Source: Actinomycetes bacterium (GTDB lineage Bacteria; Actinomycetota; Acidimicrobiia; Acidimicrobiales; JAMCPL01). Taken from it: a stretch of DNA of 64,000 bases. The stretch covers positions 1-64,000 of the forward strand of contig JAKBVZ010000036.1 in assembly GCA_021841005.1 (NCBI GenBank), given 5' to 3'. Position numbers and translations under genes: made by a program. The notes beneath the pieces were generated by a model. The model was not told the DNA's origin, did not search any database, and saw only the letters and a program-made list of their open reading frames with translations. Shown here piece after piece: positions 20,127 through 58,080 of this stretch (position 1 is its first letter; each line of letters begins with the position of its first letter).

Positions 20127-20690
20127 TTACACGAGATTCCGAGGCATCACTATGTGATCGAGTACGGCGGTACCCGGCTGGATATCGCTCCAAGATGGTA
20201 TCATAAAACGCAGATCAGCAAGTCCCGCAGTCGGCAGAGAGGAAGCATGCTTTGACTCGGCATCAGGTAGAGGAGCCGTATACCTTCCATCCAGTCCGAC
20301 AGCAGAGATGGGGCCAACACGCTCCGGCTCGGTGGTGAGCATGCCTACCAGGTCCGATATACCTGGATTGTGGCCGATCAGCAATACTGAGAGCGCCCCA
20401 TCCCCGGTACGGCCCAAGTACTTCATCATATCGTTTGCCGATGCTCGGTATAGTGCATCATCGAATACCGTCTCGATCCCACTGTCGAGGTGCAAGTGCA
20501 CCAATGTCTGGCGGGTGCGCACAGAAGAGGAGCACAGTACAAGATCCGGCTGGGTGCCTTGTTCCCGGAGGTAGTCACCGATCCGGGTTGCCGCCTTCCG
20601 GCCCCGTGAGGTCAAAGGGCGATCATGATCCAGAAGGCTAGGATCGTCCCAGGTCGATTTGGCATGACGCAATAGTATCAGTCGCAGCAT
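20127..20690 (-). CDS. sixA: SixA-type phosphohistidine phosphatase / histidine phosphatase
   Basis: The 187-residue protein begins LRLILLRHAKSTWDD, the RHG-type phosphatase motif in its SixA form (RHAKS), with His9 as the phospho-acceptor. The second block LLIGHNPGISDL provides the other catalytic His, and SSSVRTRQTL and the Arg-rich segment match the family. SixA removes phosphate from His of phosphotransfer proteins in enterics; the target here is unknown. A linker at ~155-165 is poorly conserved. The start ATG abuts a ten-copy 9-bp array whose unit (AGAGGATAT) is itself a Shine-Dalgarno-like site, so translation may depend on that array. Confidence 0.85.
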   Translation of the reverse strand: MLRLILLRHAKSTWDDPSLLDHDRPLTSRGRKAATRIGDYLREQGTQPDLVLCSSSVRTRQTLVHLHLDSGIETVFDDALYRASANDMMKYLGRTGDGALSVLLIGHNPGISDLVGMLTTEPERVGPISAVGLDGRYTAPLPDAESKHASSLPTAGLADLRFMIPSWSDIQPGTAVLDHIVMPRNLV

Positions 20691-20778
20691 ATCCTCTATA
20701 TCCTCTATATCCTCTATATCCTCTATATCCTCTATATCCTCTATATCCTCTATATCCTCTATATCCTCTATATCCTCT
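20689..20778 (-). repeat. Ten perfect 9-bp repeats forming a ladder of Shine-Dalgarno-like sites
   Basis: ATATCCTCT (minus strand AGAGGATAT) is repeated ten times without a single change over 90 bp. The array fills the whole space between the nucleotidase stop and the sixA start. The nucleotidase stop codon (TAG, 20779-20777) is at one edge and the sixA ATG (20690-20688) overlaps the other. In the nucleotidase frame every unit reads TAG AGG ATA, so stop codons are also repeated. Confidence 0.97.
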
Positions 20779-21466
20779 ATGGCCCTCTGCCGACATCAGC
20801 CAGACCATCTGTCAAGCTAATGACCTGAGCGACCACTTCATCCCAGTTGGATGCACGGCTGACCTTGCCCTCCGCGCCGGAGAAACGGGCCCGGGTGGAG
20901 TCGAAGCCTGTGTTGGGGTTGGGGTCGGTGTTGGGGTTGGGGTCGGTGGAGTCGAAGCTGGTGTTGGTGAAATTGGTGTACACGATGACGCGCTTTCCCG
21001 CCTGCGCCAGCCTCTCCACCTGCTCGGGAGTATCGTCCACAAAACAGTCTGCATCCACTGCACTCTTTTCCCCAAGGAAGCACAGATCCCAATAGGGTAT
21101 ATCGTGGTGATCAAGCCACTTCACTGTCTGCATGACGCTCTGGCGATGAAGCCGTTTGAATACAAGCCTATGGGTGACGATGCGGATACGCACACCCTTC
21201 CTGCTCAGGCCGCGCAACGCTTGAGGTGCCCCGGGAATAGGGTCCATCGTCGAAAACAGGTTGCGCTCGGTAAGAGCAAATCGATGCAGGCGCTCGTAAT
21301 CGTCCTGGCCTTCCCCGATACCCCACTGCGAGATACCCGAACCATCCATTGACAGCTCCTCTACGGGCCTGCCGAGCCATTCAGCTGCGATGACCCGCAA
21401 CCGGCCATAGAAATCCGCTACGACCCCGTCCAGATCAACACCGAGCACGAAGCCCTCTCCTGCCAT
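20777..21466 (-). CDS. HAD-family 5'(3')-nucleotidase-like phosphatase
   Basis: The 229-residue product opens GVDLDGVVADFYG, the DxDG nucleophile motif of HAD phosphatases in the form used by 5'(3')-deoxyribonucleotidases (NT5C). Motif II is RIRIVTHR, and the DCFVDDTPEQV block gives the acidic motif III/IV. The C-terminal part before the last helix has an in-frame insert (PNTDPNPNTG) caused by an 18-bp duplication at 20911-20946, flanked by a second pair (GTGGAGTCGAAGC). Substrate preference is a family-level guess. It is followed directly by sixA through the 9-bp array and is likely co-transcribed. Confidence 0.75.
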   Translation of the reverse strand: MAGEGFVLGVDLDGVVADFYGRLRVIAAEWLGRPVEELSMDGSGISQWGIGEGQDDYERLHRFALTERNLFSTMDPIPGAPQALRGLSRKGVRIRIVTHRLVFKRLHRQSVMQTVKWLDHHDIPYWDLCFLGEKSAVDADCFVDDTPEQVERLAQAGKRVIVYTNFTNTSFDSTDPNPNTDPNPNTGFDSTRARFSGAEGKVSRASNWDEVVAQVISLTDGLADVGRGP

Positions 21467-21498: not shown

Positions 21499-22446
21499 TC
21501 AGAAGTACACCATCGTGCGCGCCCGCTCCACCACGACATCAATATCCTCCGTCCACACGCCCGTAGAGAGATACTTCCAGCCGGCATCGGCGCTTACAAC
21601 CACTACGACCCCGCTCTCGATCGACTCCGCACAACGCACGGCCCCCGCCAAGGCGCTACCGGACGAGATGCCCGCGAAGATCCCTGACTCGGCCAGGCGC
21701 TTGGTCCATTCGATCGACTCTCTCGGACCTATGACCGTCTTTCGATCCAGAATCTGCATGCCGCCGAAGTCGTTGAAGATGGGTGGTATATAGCCATCGT
21801 CCAGACTGCGCAACCCATCGACCATCTCGCCTGCAGGCGGCTCGACCGCCCATACCTGTACAGCAGGATTATGCTCCTTCAGAAACTTACCTACACCGAC
21901 AAGAGTCCCTGAAGTTCCCAGCCCAGCCACAAAATGAGTTACGTCCGGGCAGTCCCTCCAGATCTCCGGTCCAGTCCCCTCGTAGTGAGCCATGGGATTG
22001 GCATGGTTGGCATATTGGTACAGGAAGATCCACTCTTCGTGCTCAGCATGGATCTTCTCCGCCATCCGCACAGCACCATTGGATCCTTCCGATCCGGGCG
22101 ATTCTATTATCTCCGCCCCGAACGCAAACAGCATCTGCCGGCGCTCCTCGGACACATTCTGCGGCATTACGACCTTCAAGCGATACCCCTTGACTTTCGA
22201 CACCATTGCCAAGGCTATGCCGGTGTTCCCGGAAGAAGGCTCCAGCAAGGTGGCCCCCTTTTCCAGCAAGCCCGACTTCTCGGCGTCCTCCACCATGGCC
22301 AGCGCAACCCTATCCTTGACAGATCCACCTGGATTCTGGCCTTCCAGCTTCATGAGTATCCGCACATCCGGATTCGGGCTGAACTCGCTCACCTCCACAA
22401 GGGGGGTATTACCCACTAGGTCAAGAATGTTACGGCAGTATGCCAC
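21499..22446 (-). CDS. cysM: CysO-dependent cysteine synthase
   Basis: This PLP enzyme of 315 residues has the Schiff-base lysine (Lys44 in NPGGSVKDR), the phosphate-binding loop of the cysteine synthase family (PSSGNTGIA) and GLGTSGTLVG. The product ends in a short tail (TMVYF). In mycobacteria CysM uses O-phosphoserine and the thiocarboxylated carrier CysO instead of free sulfide. That specific activity is inferred here from the immediate neighbour: cysO ends 2 bp upstream and mec lies before it. The start is GTG, with GGGTGGGT upstream. The last gene of the cluster. Confidence 0.9.
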   Translation of the reverse strand: MAYCRNILDLVGNTPLVEVSEFSPNPDVRILMKLEGQNPGGSVKDRVALAMVEDAEKSGLLEKGATLLEPSSGNTGIALAMVSKVKGYRLKVVMPQNVSEERRQMLFAFGAEIIESPGSEGSNGAVRMAEKIHAEHEEWIFLYQYANHANPMAHYEGTGPEIWRDCPDVTHFVAGLGTSGTLVGVGKFLKEHNPAVQVWAVEPPAGEMVDGLRSLDDGYIPPIFNDFGGMQILDRKTVIGPRESIEWTKRLAESGIFAGISSGSALAGAVRCAESIESGVVVVVSADAGWKYLSTGVWTEDIDVVVERARTMVYF

Positions 22447-22448
22447 GA

Positions 22449-22724
22449 TTACCCACCCGCCACAGCCGGTAGGATGGATATGGTATCACCATCCGATACC
22501 GATGTATCGAGGTTGCTGAGATACCGGATGTCATCATCGTTGAGATAGACATTCACAAACTTGTGCAGGGAGCCGTCAGCGGTGACAATCTGGCCGTCCA
22601 TGCCTGGGTATGCGTTCACCATGTCTTCAAGTATCTCTCCCACCGTAGAACCGTTACCCTCCACGGTGGACTTGCCATCAGCATGTACTCTCAATATGCT
22701 CGGTAAACGTATTTCAACAGGCAA
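22449..22724 (-). CDS. cysO: Ubiquitin-like sulfur carrier protein CysO
   Basis: The 91-residue protein is a MoaD/ThiS-fold carrier ending in the diglycine VAGG, the residue pair that is adenylated and turned into a thiocarboxylate. The central block FVNVYLNDDDIRYL matches the family. Mycobacterial CysO donates its sulfur to O-phosphoserine on CysM; the resulting CysO-cysteine is cut by Mec. The three genes occur here in the same order (mec, cysO, cysM). A MoeZ/MoeB-like activating enzyme is required but is not in this window. Confidence 0.9.
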   Translation of the reverse strand: MPVEIRLPSILRVHADGKSTVEGNGSTVGEILEDMVNAYPGMDGQIVTADGSLHKFVNVYLNDDDIRYLSNLDTSVSDGDTISILPAVAGG

Positions 22725-22772
22725 CTCTATCTCCTAGCCGTTCTTCCCCTGATACCGTCTGGCCTGCGCTGC

Positions 22773-22810
22773 CAGCACAGGTACAAGCTCCTACACTTGC
22801 ACCTGTGCTG
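22773..22810 (-). promoter_or_regulatory. 15-bp-arm stem-loop between mec and cysO
   Basis: CAGCACAGGTACAAG and CTTGCACCTGTGCTG pair with one mismatch around the 8-nt loop CTCCTACA, in the 151-bp space between the mec stop and the cysO start. There is no T-run, so it is more likely an attenuator, processing site or mRNA stability element than a simple terminator. Confidence 0.55.
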
Positions 22811-22875
22811 CCGTCATCACCATCGGAATACAGGTTGCGGACATTACAACAGTGAATTATTACTATTCTAATCTA

Positions 22876-23337
22876 TTATATTATCAATTGCGCCTGTCGG
22901 TGCCCCAGACCACCGATCAGCAGTTCCTCCTCGATCACCTGGCCGGCGCGTATCGAATACGTACGCATCGAGGGCAACGGACGACCGAGTCCCACGATGA
23001 CATAATGCCACTTAGGATCGGGAGCCTGGTCAATGTCAACCGGGGAAGGGTAAGGCTCCGTATGGGTATGCGAATGCACCACCCCCAAGATGACGAGCCC
23101 ACGTATCTCCACATCACGATCGGCCCGCAGGTAGTCGAGCGGATCGACGGTATAGAGGCGGGCTGAACCAGCGGCGTTGCGTGCCGGATAGAATGTGCAT
23201 GCCTCATTGCCGTAGTGGGCCGTACCCTGCTCGACTGCAGGTCCCGCCAGCATGCCGCAGGCCTCCTCAGGCAGCCGCTCCAGGCAGTACGCCACGATCT
23301 GCGCGTATACGTCACTGGTCATCACAAGCATCACCAT
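22876..23337 (-). CDS. mec: JAMM-family metalloprotease releasing cysteine from CysO
   Basis: The product has the zinc JAMM motif: a Glu in EEACGMLAG, then VVHSHTHTEPYPSPVDID (HxH-x7-S-x2-D). This identifies an MPN/Mov34 peptidase. With cysO and cysM downstream it corresponds to mycobacterial Mec, which hydrolyses the peptide bond between CysO and cysteine. The ORF track starts at a TTG (23376); the ATG at 23337 gives an N-terminus (MVMLVMTSDVY) closer to relatives, though neither start has a good Shine-Dalgarno. It is 151 bp upstream of cysO with a strong hairpin between them. Confidence 0.85.
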   Translation of the reverse strand: MVMLVMTSDVYAQIVAYCLERLPEEACGMLAGPAVEQGTAHYGNEACTFYPARNAAGSARLYTVDPLDYLRADRDVEIRGLVILGVVHSHTHTEPYPSPVDIDQAPDPKWHYVIVGLGRPLPSMRTYSIRAGQVIEEELLIGGLGHRQAQLII

Positions 23338-23509
23338 ACAGGCTACATGATCCGCTCCACCCGCGCTGCTGGGCAAGAGACTATCGTGACATCATACTAT
23401 CTGGGATCGATAAACTGGAGCCGCACAGACAATATCCAATACCGCTCCAACTGCAAGCTGCAACCGTATCTCAGGCCATCCACCTTTCCTCGTCACCAGC
23501 CTGCCCTGC

Positions 23510-24079
23510 CTAGGAATCATTCACCGTCCTCTGAGCCCTACGGGTCGCCTGTGCCACCTCCCTGGATGCATCTCTCATTGCGTCGCGTTCTTGAATGGCT
23601 TTCCGCTTGTCCCACATGCGTTTCCCTCTGGCCAGACCCAATGACGCTTTTGCCTTGCCATCCTTGAAGTATATGGAGAGCGGGATCAGCGTAAGAGATT
23701 TCTCGAGAGTCTTCCCAGCAAGATAATTTATCTGTTTCCGATGTAGGAGTAGCTTGCGGCTGCGCTCTGGATCATGCATGCCATATGCTCCCGCCTGGGT
23801 ATACGGTGCTATGTGCATACCCACCAACCATATCTCGCCAGAGTGTATCCTTGCATAAGCATCCGTGAGGGACACTTGATTCATCCTCAGTGATTTCACT
23901 TCCGACCCGTGCAGCACCAGCCCGCATTCGACGGTCTCCAGTATCTCGTAGTCATATCTCGCACGTCGGTTGCGCGCGACGACCTGATTGTTCGATGTCC
24001 GTGCCTGCCTGTTTCTCGACTTGGCGCTCTTAGCCTTCACGGACTGAGATTTGCCACTTCGGTCATTGCCACCGCTCAT
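23510..24079 (-). CDS. smpB: SsrA-binding protein SmpB
   Basis: The 189-residue protein carries all SmpB blocks: NRRARYDYEILETVECGLVL, GSEVKSLR, DAYARI, GEIWLVGMHIAPY, HDPERSRKLLLHRKQI and LGLARGKRMWDKRKAI. SmpB delivers tmRNA to stalled ribosomes. An N-terminal Lys/Ser-rich extension of ~30 residues (KSQSVKAKSAKSRNRQ) is longer than usual and may be disordered. I searched the adjacent gaps for tmRNA hallmarks and saw none, so ssrA is elsewhere. Confidence 0.93.
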   Translation of the reverse strand: MSGGNDRSGKSQSVKAKSAKSRNRQARTSNNQVVARNRRARYDYEILETVECGLVLHGSEVKSLRMNQVSLTDAYARIHSGEIWLVGMHIAPYTQAGAYGMHDPERSRKLLLHRKQINYLAGKTLEKSLTLIPLSIYFKDGKAKASLGLARGKRMWDKRKAIQERDAMRDASREVAQATRRAQRTVNDS

Positions 24080-24334
24080 CTGCCACTCCTACTCTTAGGA
24101 TGGTAATGTTTACCGGATAGAATTGGATTTGACCCACACTCCTACTGGCTTCGTACCTTTCTGCTGATATGGTTGATATGTCGGCCCAAGTTCTATCCGG
24201 AACAGCAAACACATTGAAACACGTTGAGAACCTGCAGCATAACAGAAATTCCCCGGTTCCAGCTACTAGGTAGGCGAATACAAGCAGCCACCAGCCACTA
24301 TGCCAACCGAACAACAGCCACCGGCCATCGGTCA

Positions 24335-25012
24335 CTATGCCAGCCAGCAAAGGTGTTCTCTGTTGCCCAACAGTTCTAGGCGACGCCACAACACGGGATT
24401 ATCACCCGATTGGCTGGCATGGCATGCAATTGCTCTCATCTGGCGTGTCCGATCCACCGTAATGAAAAAATCAATCATACCGGGAGGGCGACCGATGAAG
24501 CACGTGCCAAACTCGGCATTCAGCCGTCCGGCGACACTCTCGGGCAATGTCCAGGCCAGAACCCTGAGCCCGAATTCGCTTGCCACCACCAGCGAAGCTT
24601 CGGTGGCACGGCAGTGATCGCCATGTCCGGTAATGCCATCTCTGTCAAAGACTATGAAAGCCTCGGCATCCTTTCCGGCAAGTCTTACGGCACCTGCCAG
24701 CTCATCAAGGGGTACCTCGTTCAAATGACCATCCGGATAATCCAGAAGTCTTGGGTGGTCAATGCCAAGCACTCCAGCAGCAGATGCCAGCTCCGTTGCC
24801 CGGATCTCTCCCAGCGTTGCTCCGGTCGGGTCCCCAAGGCTGGATGCTTCTCCGTGGGTGAAACACAGTGCACCGATATGGGCCCCGCGGTCCACCAAAG
24901 CGGACACCACCGCGCCAAAACCGAAAGATTCGTCGTCAGGATGAGCAAAGACGGCCAGCAAACGTTGAAATGACGGTAATTCGCTGCTTGCCATATTACG
25001 CCCGGTTGACAC
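24335..25012 (-). CDS. PIG-L / LmbE-family deacetylase
   Basis: The 225-residue enzyme shows the zinc motif AHPDDESFG (HPDDE) near residue 22 and a later HGDHCRATEASLV block that supplies the third His. Family members deacetylate N-acetylglucosamine derivatives, as in mycothiol biosynthesis (MshB) or mycothiol conjugate cleavage (Mca). This copy is shorter than MshB or Mca, so the substrate is open. The last ~10 bp of the gene (CACTATGCCA) are repeated 37 bp further downstream. The 255-bp gap 24080-24334 holds a distant inverted repeat (CCGGATAGAA/TTCTATCCGG) but no convincing gene. Confidence 0.85.
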   Translation of the reverse strand: MSTGRNMASSELPSFQRLLAVFAHPDDESFGFGAVVSALVDRGAHIGALCFTHGEASSLGDPTGATLGEIRATELASAAGVLGIDHPRLLDYPDGHLNEVPLDELAGAVRLAGKDAEAFIVFDRDGITGHGDHCRATEASLVVASEFGLRVLAWTLPESVAGRLNAEFGTCFIGRPPGMIDFFITVDRTRQMRAIACHASQSGDNPVLWRRLELLGNREHLCWLA

Positions 25013-39382: not shown

Positions 39383-39433
<51 letters not shown>

Positions 39434-43908: not shown

Positions 43909-44014
43909 AGCGCCATCTAGCGGGTCCGCTGATGCCAGAACCTACAGCACCGAAGGCATGACGGCGTTTACGCTGTGGGTTGCCGCGCTGCCGACTGCTG
44001 TGCTACCACACGAT

Positions 44015-44117
44015 GCACACCTGCACACCTGCACACCTGCACACCTGCACACCTGCACACCTGCACACCTGCACACCTGCACACCTGCACACCTGCACAC
44101 CTGCACACCTGCACACC
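44015..44117. repeat. About 13 perfect copies of an 8-bp unit between the LRV genes
   Basis: GCACACCT is repeated 12.9 times without change over 103 bp in the 307-bp gap between the two LRV genes. ORFs listed across it are read-through of the repeat (LHTCTPAH in all three frames) and are not genes. An 8-bp unit would shift any frame, so it can only sit in non-coding DNA or at a switch. Confidence 0.97.
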
Positions 44118-44248
44118 GCACCAGGTACCCGGGCCCAGACACGGGCTACACAGACTATATTGCCTCCATGCCCAGGCACTGGTATGCACCTGTGTGGCAG
44201 AACATCATGCTATGATTGAGTGTAGAGGATACGGAGGAGACCATAGAG

Positions 44249-57338: not shown

Positions 57339-57815
57339 GTGGACCATATAGGGGTGGTGGATACCATGTTCGCCCGCGTCGACATGGCTGCAGAGGCAAT
57401 GGATGAGTTGCGCTCATGCGATGGATATGGCAGCAAATTCGAGGTGGTCCATAGAACTGTACCCGGCTTCAAGGATCTGGGGGTCGAATGCAAGCGCCTG
57501 ATCCACCTGCACGGGTGCAATATAGTCATTGCCATCGGCATGGCCGGGAGCGCCCCTGTGGATCAAATCTGCGCGCATGAAGCCAGCCAGGCCATCATGC
57601 TGGCACAACTGCTGACAAATACACATGTGCTCGAAGTTTTCGTATACGAAAACGAGGCTGATGATCCATCGAAGCTTGCGGAAATCTGCAGGCAACGTGC
57701 CCGCAAACATGCACGCAACGCCTACTGGCTTCTCTACGATCCAGATCAGCTCGCAAGGAGGGCAGGGCAGGGTATCCGCCAAGGGGCTGCCGATGCAGGT
57801 CCGTTGCCGGAGTAG
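57339..57815 (+). CDS. ribC: Archaeal-type riboflavin synthase
   Basis: The 158-residue protein matches the archaeal riboflavin synthase family, unrelated in domain layout to bacterial RibE: IGVVDTMFARVDMAAEAMDE at the start, RTVPGFKDLGVECKRLI, DQICAHEASQAIMLAQLLTNTHVLEVFVYENEADD and RARKHARNAYWLLYDPDQL. It converts two 6,7-dimethyl-8-ribityllumazines into riboflavin plus a pyrimidine. The start is GTG. It is the third gene of the acyltransferase-epimerase operon. The last two codons and stop are the first unit of a 16-bp tandem array. Confidence 0.88.
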   Translation: MDHIGVVDTMFARVDMAAEAMDELRSCDGYGSKFEVVHRTVPGFKDLGVECKRLIHLHGCNIVIAIGMAGSAPVDQICAHEASQAIMLAQLLTNTHVLEVFVYENEADDPSKLAEICRQRARKHARNAYWLLYDPDQLARRAGQGIRQGAADAGPLPE

Positions 57816-57918
57816 GGCATTACCTGCTTAGGGCATTACCTGCTTAGGGCATTACCGGAGTAGGGCATTACCGGAGTAGGGCATTACCGGAGTAGGGCAT
57901 TACCGGAGTAGGGCATTA
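57807..57918 (+). repeat. Seven 16-bp repeats beginning inside the ribC stop region
   Basis: Seven 16-bp units in the order A B B A A A A, where A is CCGGAGTAGGGCATTA and B is CCTGCTTAGGGCATTA, run from 57807 to 57918. Unit 1 supplies the last codons and TAG stop of ribC. The remaining gap to 58080 holds an ATGCT x4 run (58008-58025) and no gene. Confidence 0.97.
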
Positions 57919-58080
57919 CCTAGCTGCTTAGAAGTCCTCCGGCGTAGGACATACTAATGTACGATATTCGTGTCATAGGATATTCACGTTATGGGATATT
58001 GACACATGCTATGCTATGCTATGCTCCAAGCGCTCTTTCCAGCCGGGCTCTTGACCACCTGACTGGAGGTACCGGTCAGA

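Follow-up and report, generated by a model that had tools for sequence, protein, structure and literature searches.

Short DNA repeats that stand directly before a start codon raise the question of whether their copy number controls the gene that follows, or whether they are products of ordinary repeat turnover that happen to carry a useful motif. We examined this question at a locus within a 64,000-nucleotide stretch from the draft genome of an uncultured actinobacterium (hereafter the window, meaning that stretch at its full length), where ten identical 9-bp units, reading AGAGGATAT on the mRNA, separate a nucleotidase gene from a gene for a SixA-like histidine phosphatase. The original prediction had described these units as a ladder of ribosome-binding motifs whose copy number might set the translation of the phosphatase.

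Anatomy of the nucleotidase-sixA junction

The repeat was delimited by TRF at positions 20689-20780, with a period of 9, 10.2 copies, a 100% match and no indels. Chance cannot account for ten perfect copies of a 9-bp unit, the number ten being the consensus of a draft assembly. Elsewhere in that 2.45-Mb assembly the exact unit is never found twice in succession. The array takes up the whole intercistronic spacer as well as the final two bases of the NT5C stop codon and the first two bases of the sixA start codon: the AG of the nucleotidase UAG is part of the first unit, the AU of the sixA AUG is part of the last, and the 86 nt between them are filled by array. Followed along the minus strand from 20778 to 20689 the units are AGAGGAUAU, and the junction runs CCA-UAG(stop, 20779-20777)-AGGAUAU-(AGAGGAUAU)n-AUG (20690-20688). 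The ten-copy array proposed to precede sixA is therefore present as described, with its last unit building part of the start codon. The same holds for the proposed UAG stop in every unit, since in the nucleotidase frame the array translates as (*RI)10. The sixA frame is open throughout, as (IED)10, and no start codon lies inside the array in any frame; the sixA frame has no ATG, GTG or TTG there, only ATA. The coordinates of all features are collected in the table.

Table. Features of the array and of the genes around it, in positions of the window.
Feature	Position	Strand	Basis
SixA-like histidine phosphatase, 187 aa	20127..20690	(-)	Pfam His_Phos_1; NCBIfam sixA below curated cut-off
sixA-like AUG, AU in last unit	20688..20690	(-)	frames; aligned with congener starts
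Ten identical 9-bp units	20689..20778	(-)	sequence and TRF
GAGG core of last unit, 2 nt before AUG, short spacing	20693..20696	(-)	sequence, duplex energy, genome SD profile
GAGG core of penultimate unit, 11 nt from AUG (long but workable spacing); possible functional SD	20702..20705	(-)	sequence, duplex energy, genome SD profile
Nucleotidase UAG stop, AG opens first unit	20777..20779	(-)	gene calls and frames
NT5C-family 5'(3')-deoxyribonucleotidase-like protein, 229 aa	20777..21466	(-)	family match and alignment
Second small repeat, nucleotidase C-terminal tail, codes PNPNTD	20910..20948	(-)	TRF and translation
PIG-L deacetylase, smpB, JAB protease, ThiS/MoaD-like protein, cysteine synthase	21499..25012	(-)	upstream, co-oriented

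The protein downstream of the array is a branch-1 histidine phosphatase for which SixA is the best named relative, at a score below the NCBIfam cut-off. Its annotated start is backed by alignment with congeners, in which a GTG falls near the same residue. Compared with the sister species described below, the SixA-like protein (window 20127-20690) carries an insertion of about 24 residues, around residues 126-151. On the other side, the C-terminal stretch of the nucleotidase is lineage-specific, and the PNPNTD repeat in its tail is not found in the sister species. The five co-oriented genes upstream may be on one transcript with the nucleotidase and sixA.

Origin of the array and the population to which it belongs

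Among the genomes compared, the nearest relative of the source species is a sister species, Actinobacteria bacterium isolate FK_Sedi_A_Bin.79 (G004, locus L037), in which synteny around the locus is intact at about 85-94% nucleotide identity. Its junction reads TAGAGGATG TGGAGGGCA TAGAGGATGG TGGAGGATG TAGAGGAT-ATG, that is, about five degraded units in a spacer of 42 nt as against ten units and 86 nt here, and this spacer holds two nucleotidase-frame UAGs only. GAGG is kept in every one of the five degraded units: none of 20 core positions has changed, compared with 7 of 25 outside the core (one-sided P 0.011, from units that are not independent). This retention is the best hint of selection on a Shine-Dalgarno (SD) core beyond the last two units, and a weak one because of that non-independence. 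The degraded array of the sister (L037 4956-5003) also contains several ATG and GTG codons and one ATG-TAG start-stop. One in-frame upstream ATG, with a strong GGAGG about 9 nt before it, would add MVEDVED to SixA, so that the sister protein could bear a short N-terminal tail.

Two further congeners (G002, locus L011, and G001, locus L012) have no array at this junction; in both, sixA probably starts at a GTG overlapping the 3' end of the nucleotidase gene, with almost no SD. As units are present in the two sisters and absent from the two more distant congeners, the array was most likely born in the common ancestor of the source species and its sister. Its perfection appears to be newer than the split from the sister, since about 5 substitutions would be expected from that time and none is present in 90 bp (P about 0.003-0.008). 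From this we infer that the array was recently expanded or homogenised in the source species, which agrees with the earlier suggestion that it is young or homogenised. The copies at this one site thus range from ten perfect (here) through about five degraded (G004) to none (G001 and G002), as slippage produces, in a comparison of number and length that spans species with one genome each and says nothing on strains within a species.

To place the array in its genomic setting, short tandem arrays of at least 3.5 copies were counted in samples of 462 kb from this genome, 496 kb from the sister, 269 kb from G002 and 353 kb from a further relative, G005. In the 462 kb the sixA array proved to be one of a population of 45 short arrays, of which 28 were at least 98% perfect. 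In the sample of the sister 16 were counted (3 at least 98% perfect), in that of G002 4 (none) and in that of G005 20 (11). Array density in the sample of this genome (the window and loci L056-L075) is about 10 per 100 kb, as compared with 3.2 in the sister and 1.5 in another congener; a figure of "hundreds" of such arrays genome-wide is an extrapolation from the 462-kb sample.

Most arrays in this genome are near-perfect and species-specific. The period is divisible by three in all 25 coding arrays and in 7 of the 20 intergenic ones, where periods are mixed, as expected of slippage filtered by the reading frame. Other arrays on the same contig mostly have 0-3 units at the orthologous sites of the sister, which indicates that the same process of birth and expansion works widely. 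Since perfect young arrays are common across the genome, perfect identity is nothing special to sixA. Overlap with a start codon, scored with all in-frame starts considered and with gene starts called in this analysis, was found in 1 of the 20 sampled intergenic arrays, namely the sixA array itself, and the sample accordingly gives no indication that start codons attract such ladders. The pattern of the census is what neutral slippage would leave if it now and then captured a useful site, and perfect identity thereby loses most of its weight as evidence for a special role.

Several other arrays deserve mention in their own right. At L059 7897-7983 (C17 131897-131983), (TGATG)17 lies between divergent genes, its unit being an overlapping stop/start motif. 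An SD-like (AGGAGC)8.5 at window 39383-39433 stands 64 nt upstream of a gene which we take to be aceE-like, with no clean repeat at that place in the sister. Two others, TGCACACC in 13.6 copies at 44014-44121 and a 16-mer in 7 copies at 57807-57920, are both longer here than in the sister. Searches for NucS_C and MutS_V gave no match in this genome (G000) or in G001, G002, G004 and G005, with positive controls; the lineage may be without both known mismatch-repair systems. Such a loss was rejected as a reason for the many arrays, because the relatives with few arrays are also without these matches, which leaves the difference in load unexplained by it.

By the tests made here, the sixA array belongs to the slippage minisatellites of the kind known as long simple sequence repeats (LSSRs), consisting of head-to-tail, near-identical short units beyond what chance provides. 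LSSRs have units of 5-11 nt and occur in LSSR-rich bacteria including Actinobacteria, according to the summary of Mrazek 2007 given in PMC4679880. Common to both are scattered short perfect arrays, periods in multiples of three within coding sequence and mixed between genes, and an origin by slippage; the sixA array is distinguished by adjoining a start codon and by an SD core in each unit. The TAACTGA heptamer repeats before start codons of Beggiatoaceae, Cyanobacteria and Bacteroidetes (PMC4679880) are likewise perfect short arrays over the position of the ribosome-binding site (RBS) that end beside start codons. They are, however, a single unit repeated at 169 loci and hardly SD-like, whereas the array described here is SD-like and confined to a single locus, and hence is not a dispersed leader repeat of that type. 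Mycobacterial interspersed repetitive units (MIRUs) also lie between co-oriented actinobacterial genes with stop and start codons at their edges, but these are dispersed elements with a small ORF of their own, coupled through an overlap of 4 nt (PMC12548453). The sixA array, with its 9-bp unit at one locus and no internal ORF, is therefore not a MIRU.

Shine-Dalgarno content and the sixA start region

The SD core of each unit is GAGG, 4 bp only, with a duplex energy of about -5.8 kcal/mol each against ACCUCCUU, which makes it a weak to moderate SD. The anti-SD CCUCC used here was taken from the 16S tail of the sister species, the 16S gene being absent from the draft of the source species. In the SD profile of the genome, sites at least as strong as that of the array peak with 8-mer starts at -12 to -14, in about 16% of genes versus a background of about 3%. 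The 8-mers of the array start at about -8 in the last unit and about -17 in the penultimate one, on either shoulder of this peak, so the unit that touches the AUG has no clear claim to be the functional SD: it is too near for the best SD, and its penultimate neighbour qualifies equally well. The array does offer sixA a sequence complementary to the 3' end of 16S rRNA at a usable distance, and it probably works like an ordinary SD. The proposed ladder of ribosome-binding motifs thus stands insofar as every unit carries a GAGG complementary to CCUCC; it has to be qualified in that the core is short and in that the last copy, which had been placed right before the AUG, is too close to it.

Folding predictions find the array RNA less structured than shuffled sequence (z +2.13), with no structure predicted, so the GAGG cores are probably exposed. 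When copy number was varied in the predictions, the pairing of the AUG and of the last two SD cores did not change beyond about 4-5 copies.

Further searches gave little. The array had no match in the plasmid collection, Rfam recognised a neighbouring tRNA only, and scans for sigma-70 promoters and terminators remained at chance level. GAGG at a 9-nt period was as frequent genome-wide as in a backward control, which is itself SD-like and hence a poor one. Two near-identical viral contigs contain a repeat of the unit, which is apparently coding there (IED), and were set aside as unrelated.

Interpretation of the array and its alternatives

We consider it likely, with some reserve, that the array is an ordinary slippage minisatellite of an array-rich actinobacterial genome that captured a ribosome-binding site, and that the last two or so units act in initiation. 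What has been shown is the build of the junction, its complementarity to the anti-SD, the differences among relatives and the genome-wide process. The mechanism that we propose from them is as follows. At the junction of nucleotidase and sixA, a purine-rich stretch that bound ribosomes would have given rise to the array or been taken over by it, and in one sublineage the GAGG-bearing units may have pushed apart two formerly overlapping genes and supplied SD motifs. Translation of sixA would then begin by ordinary SD-mediated initiation at one or both of the final two units (2 and 11 nt from the AUG), and the other units would form an unstructured spacer, reducing over 86 nt the coupling to the nucleotidase. 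The output of sixA would hardly respond, or not respond at all, to copies above about four, and the array is probably of little consequence beyond its last two copies. Published precedents count against this part of the proposal: distant single-stranded standby sites can support high translation (PMC3936740) and in Bacillus expression went on rising as tandem RBSs were increased to six (PMC9723656), so the extra units could matter. The GAGG kept in all five units of the sister speaks weakly in the same direction.

The principal alternative is a translational rheostat, that is, a hypervariable SD ladder or standby site, varying at the population level, whose copy number tunes the level of SixA or its coupling to the nucleotidase. 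Slippage in 9-nt steps never alters the sixA frame, the ten GAGG cores are probably exposed and the last unit builds the start codon; the stop-start distance differs between the sister species (86 and 42 nt), and the sister has kept GAGG in all its units. Copy-number effects of this kind have been described for the Moraxella catarrhalis uspA2 5' leader, where, in the account cited in PMC4679880, 6-23 copies of an AGAT repeat alter expression. Both are short-unit arrays in an untranslated stretch before a gene with copies that differ between lineages, but as that account has it the uspA2 effect is a measured one of a 4-nt unit in a 5' leader, whereas the sixA array is intercistronic and known from sequence. 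The sixA array resembles engineered leaders with tandem RBSs (PMC9723656) and modules with standby sites (PMC3936740) in that several exposed RBS motifs precede one gene. Each engineered tandem RBS copy, however, holds a start codon (PMC9723656), which the natural units do not. Given also that perfect arrays are common in this genome, that overlap with a start is confined to a single sampled intergenic array and that predicted accessibility is flat above 4-5 copies, we regard the rheostat as unlikely, and we place its fuller form, in which a single sublineage made the ladder out of two overlapping genes, at the lower end of that judgement. Copy-number control of sixA is thus a possible role, for which the array is a candidate only.

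More doubtful still is a primary role in uncoupling, by which a stop-start gap of 42-86 nt would lower termination-reinitiation and the in-frame UAGs would block readthrough, making SixA independent of the nucleotidase. The congeners that have no array have overlapping genes and no SD of note, and coupling in model bacteria declines with distance, 3-10 fold by about +40 nt (PMC12548453). Any stop-bearing spacer would suffice for this, however; ten stops are unneeded, and the sister manages with two in the nucleotidase frame. The idea overlaps the preferred explanation and leaves the form of the array unaccounted for, and we think it improbable on its own.

We find it very improbable that the copy number or the perfection is partly a product of assembly, through collapse or a mixed-population consensus. 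The draft genome consists of 36 contigs, several of which begin or end inside arrays, which implies that long arrays were left unresolved in the assembly. A 92-bp array would nonetheless fit within one typical short read, the contig runs through it, and related units occupy the same site in the separately assembled genome of the sister. Scarcely credible, finally, is a coding repeat in which translation from within or upstream of the array adds an (IED)n tail to the N-terminus of SixA: the open sixA frame and the upstream ATG of the sister would permit it, but in this genome the codons ahead of the annotated AUG offer no start and homologues begin at or near its residue.

Under the captured-site explanation, if only the last two units act, the locus would be a clean natural case in which neutral repeat turnover puts a spacer with SD motifs in the place of coupling between overlapping genes. 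Should SixA indeed be tuned by copy number, the locus would instead be a rare natural rheostat built as an SD ladder. The series of no array, degraded array and perfect array among these relatives makes either version testable, and the high load of perfect arrays in this genome is of some general interest by itself.
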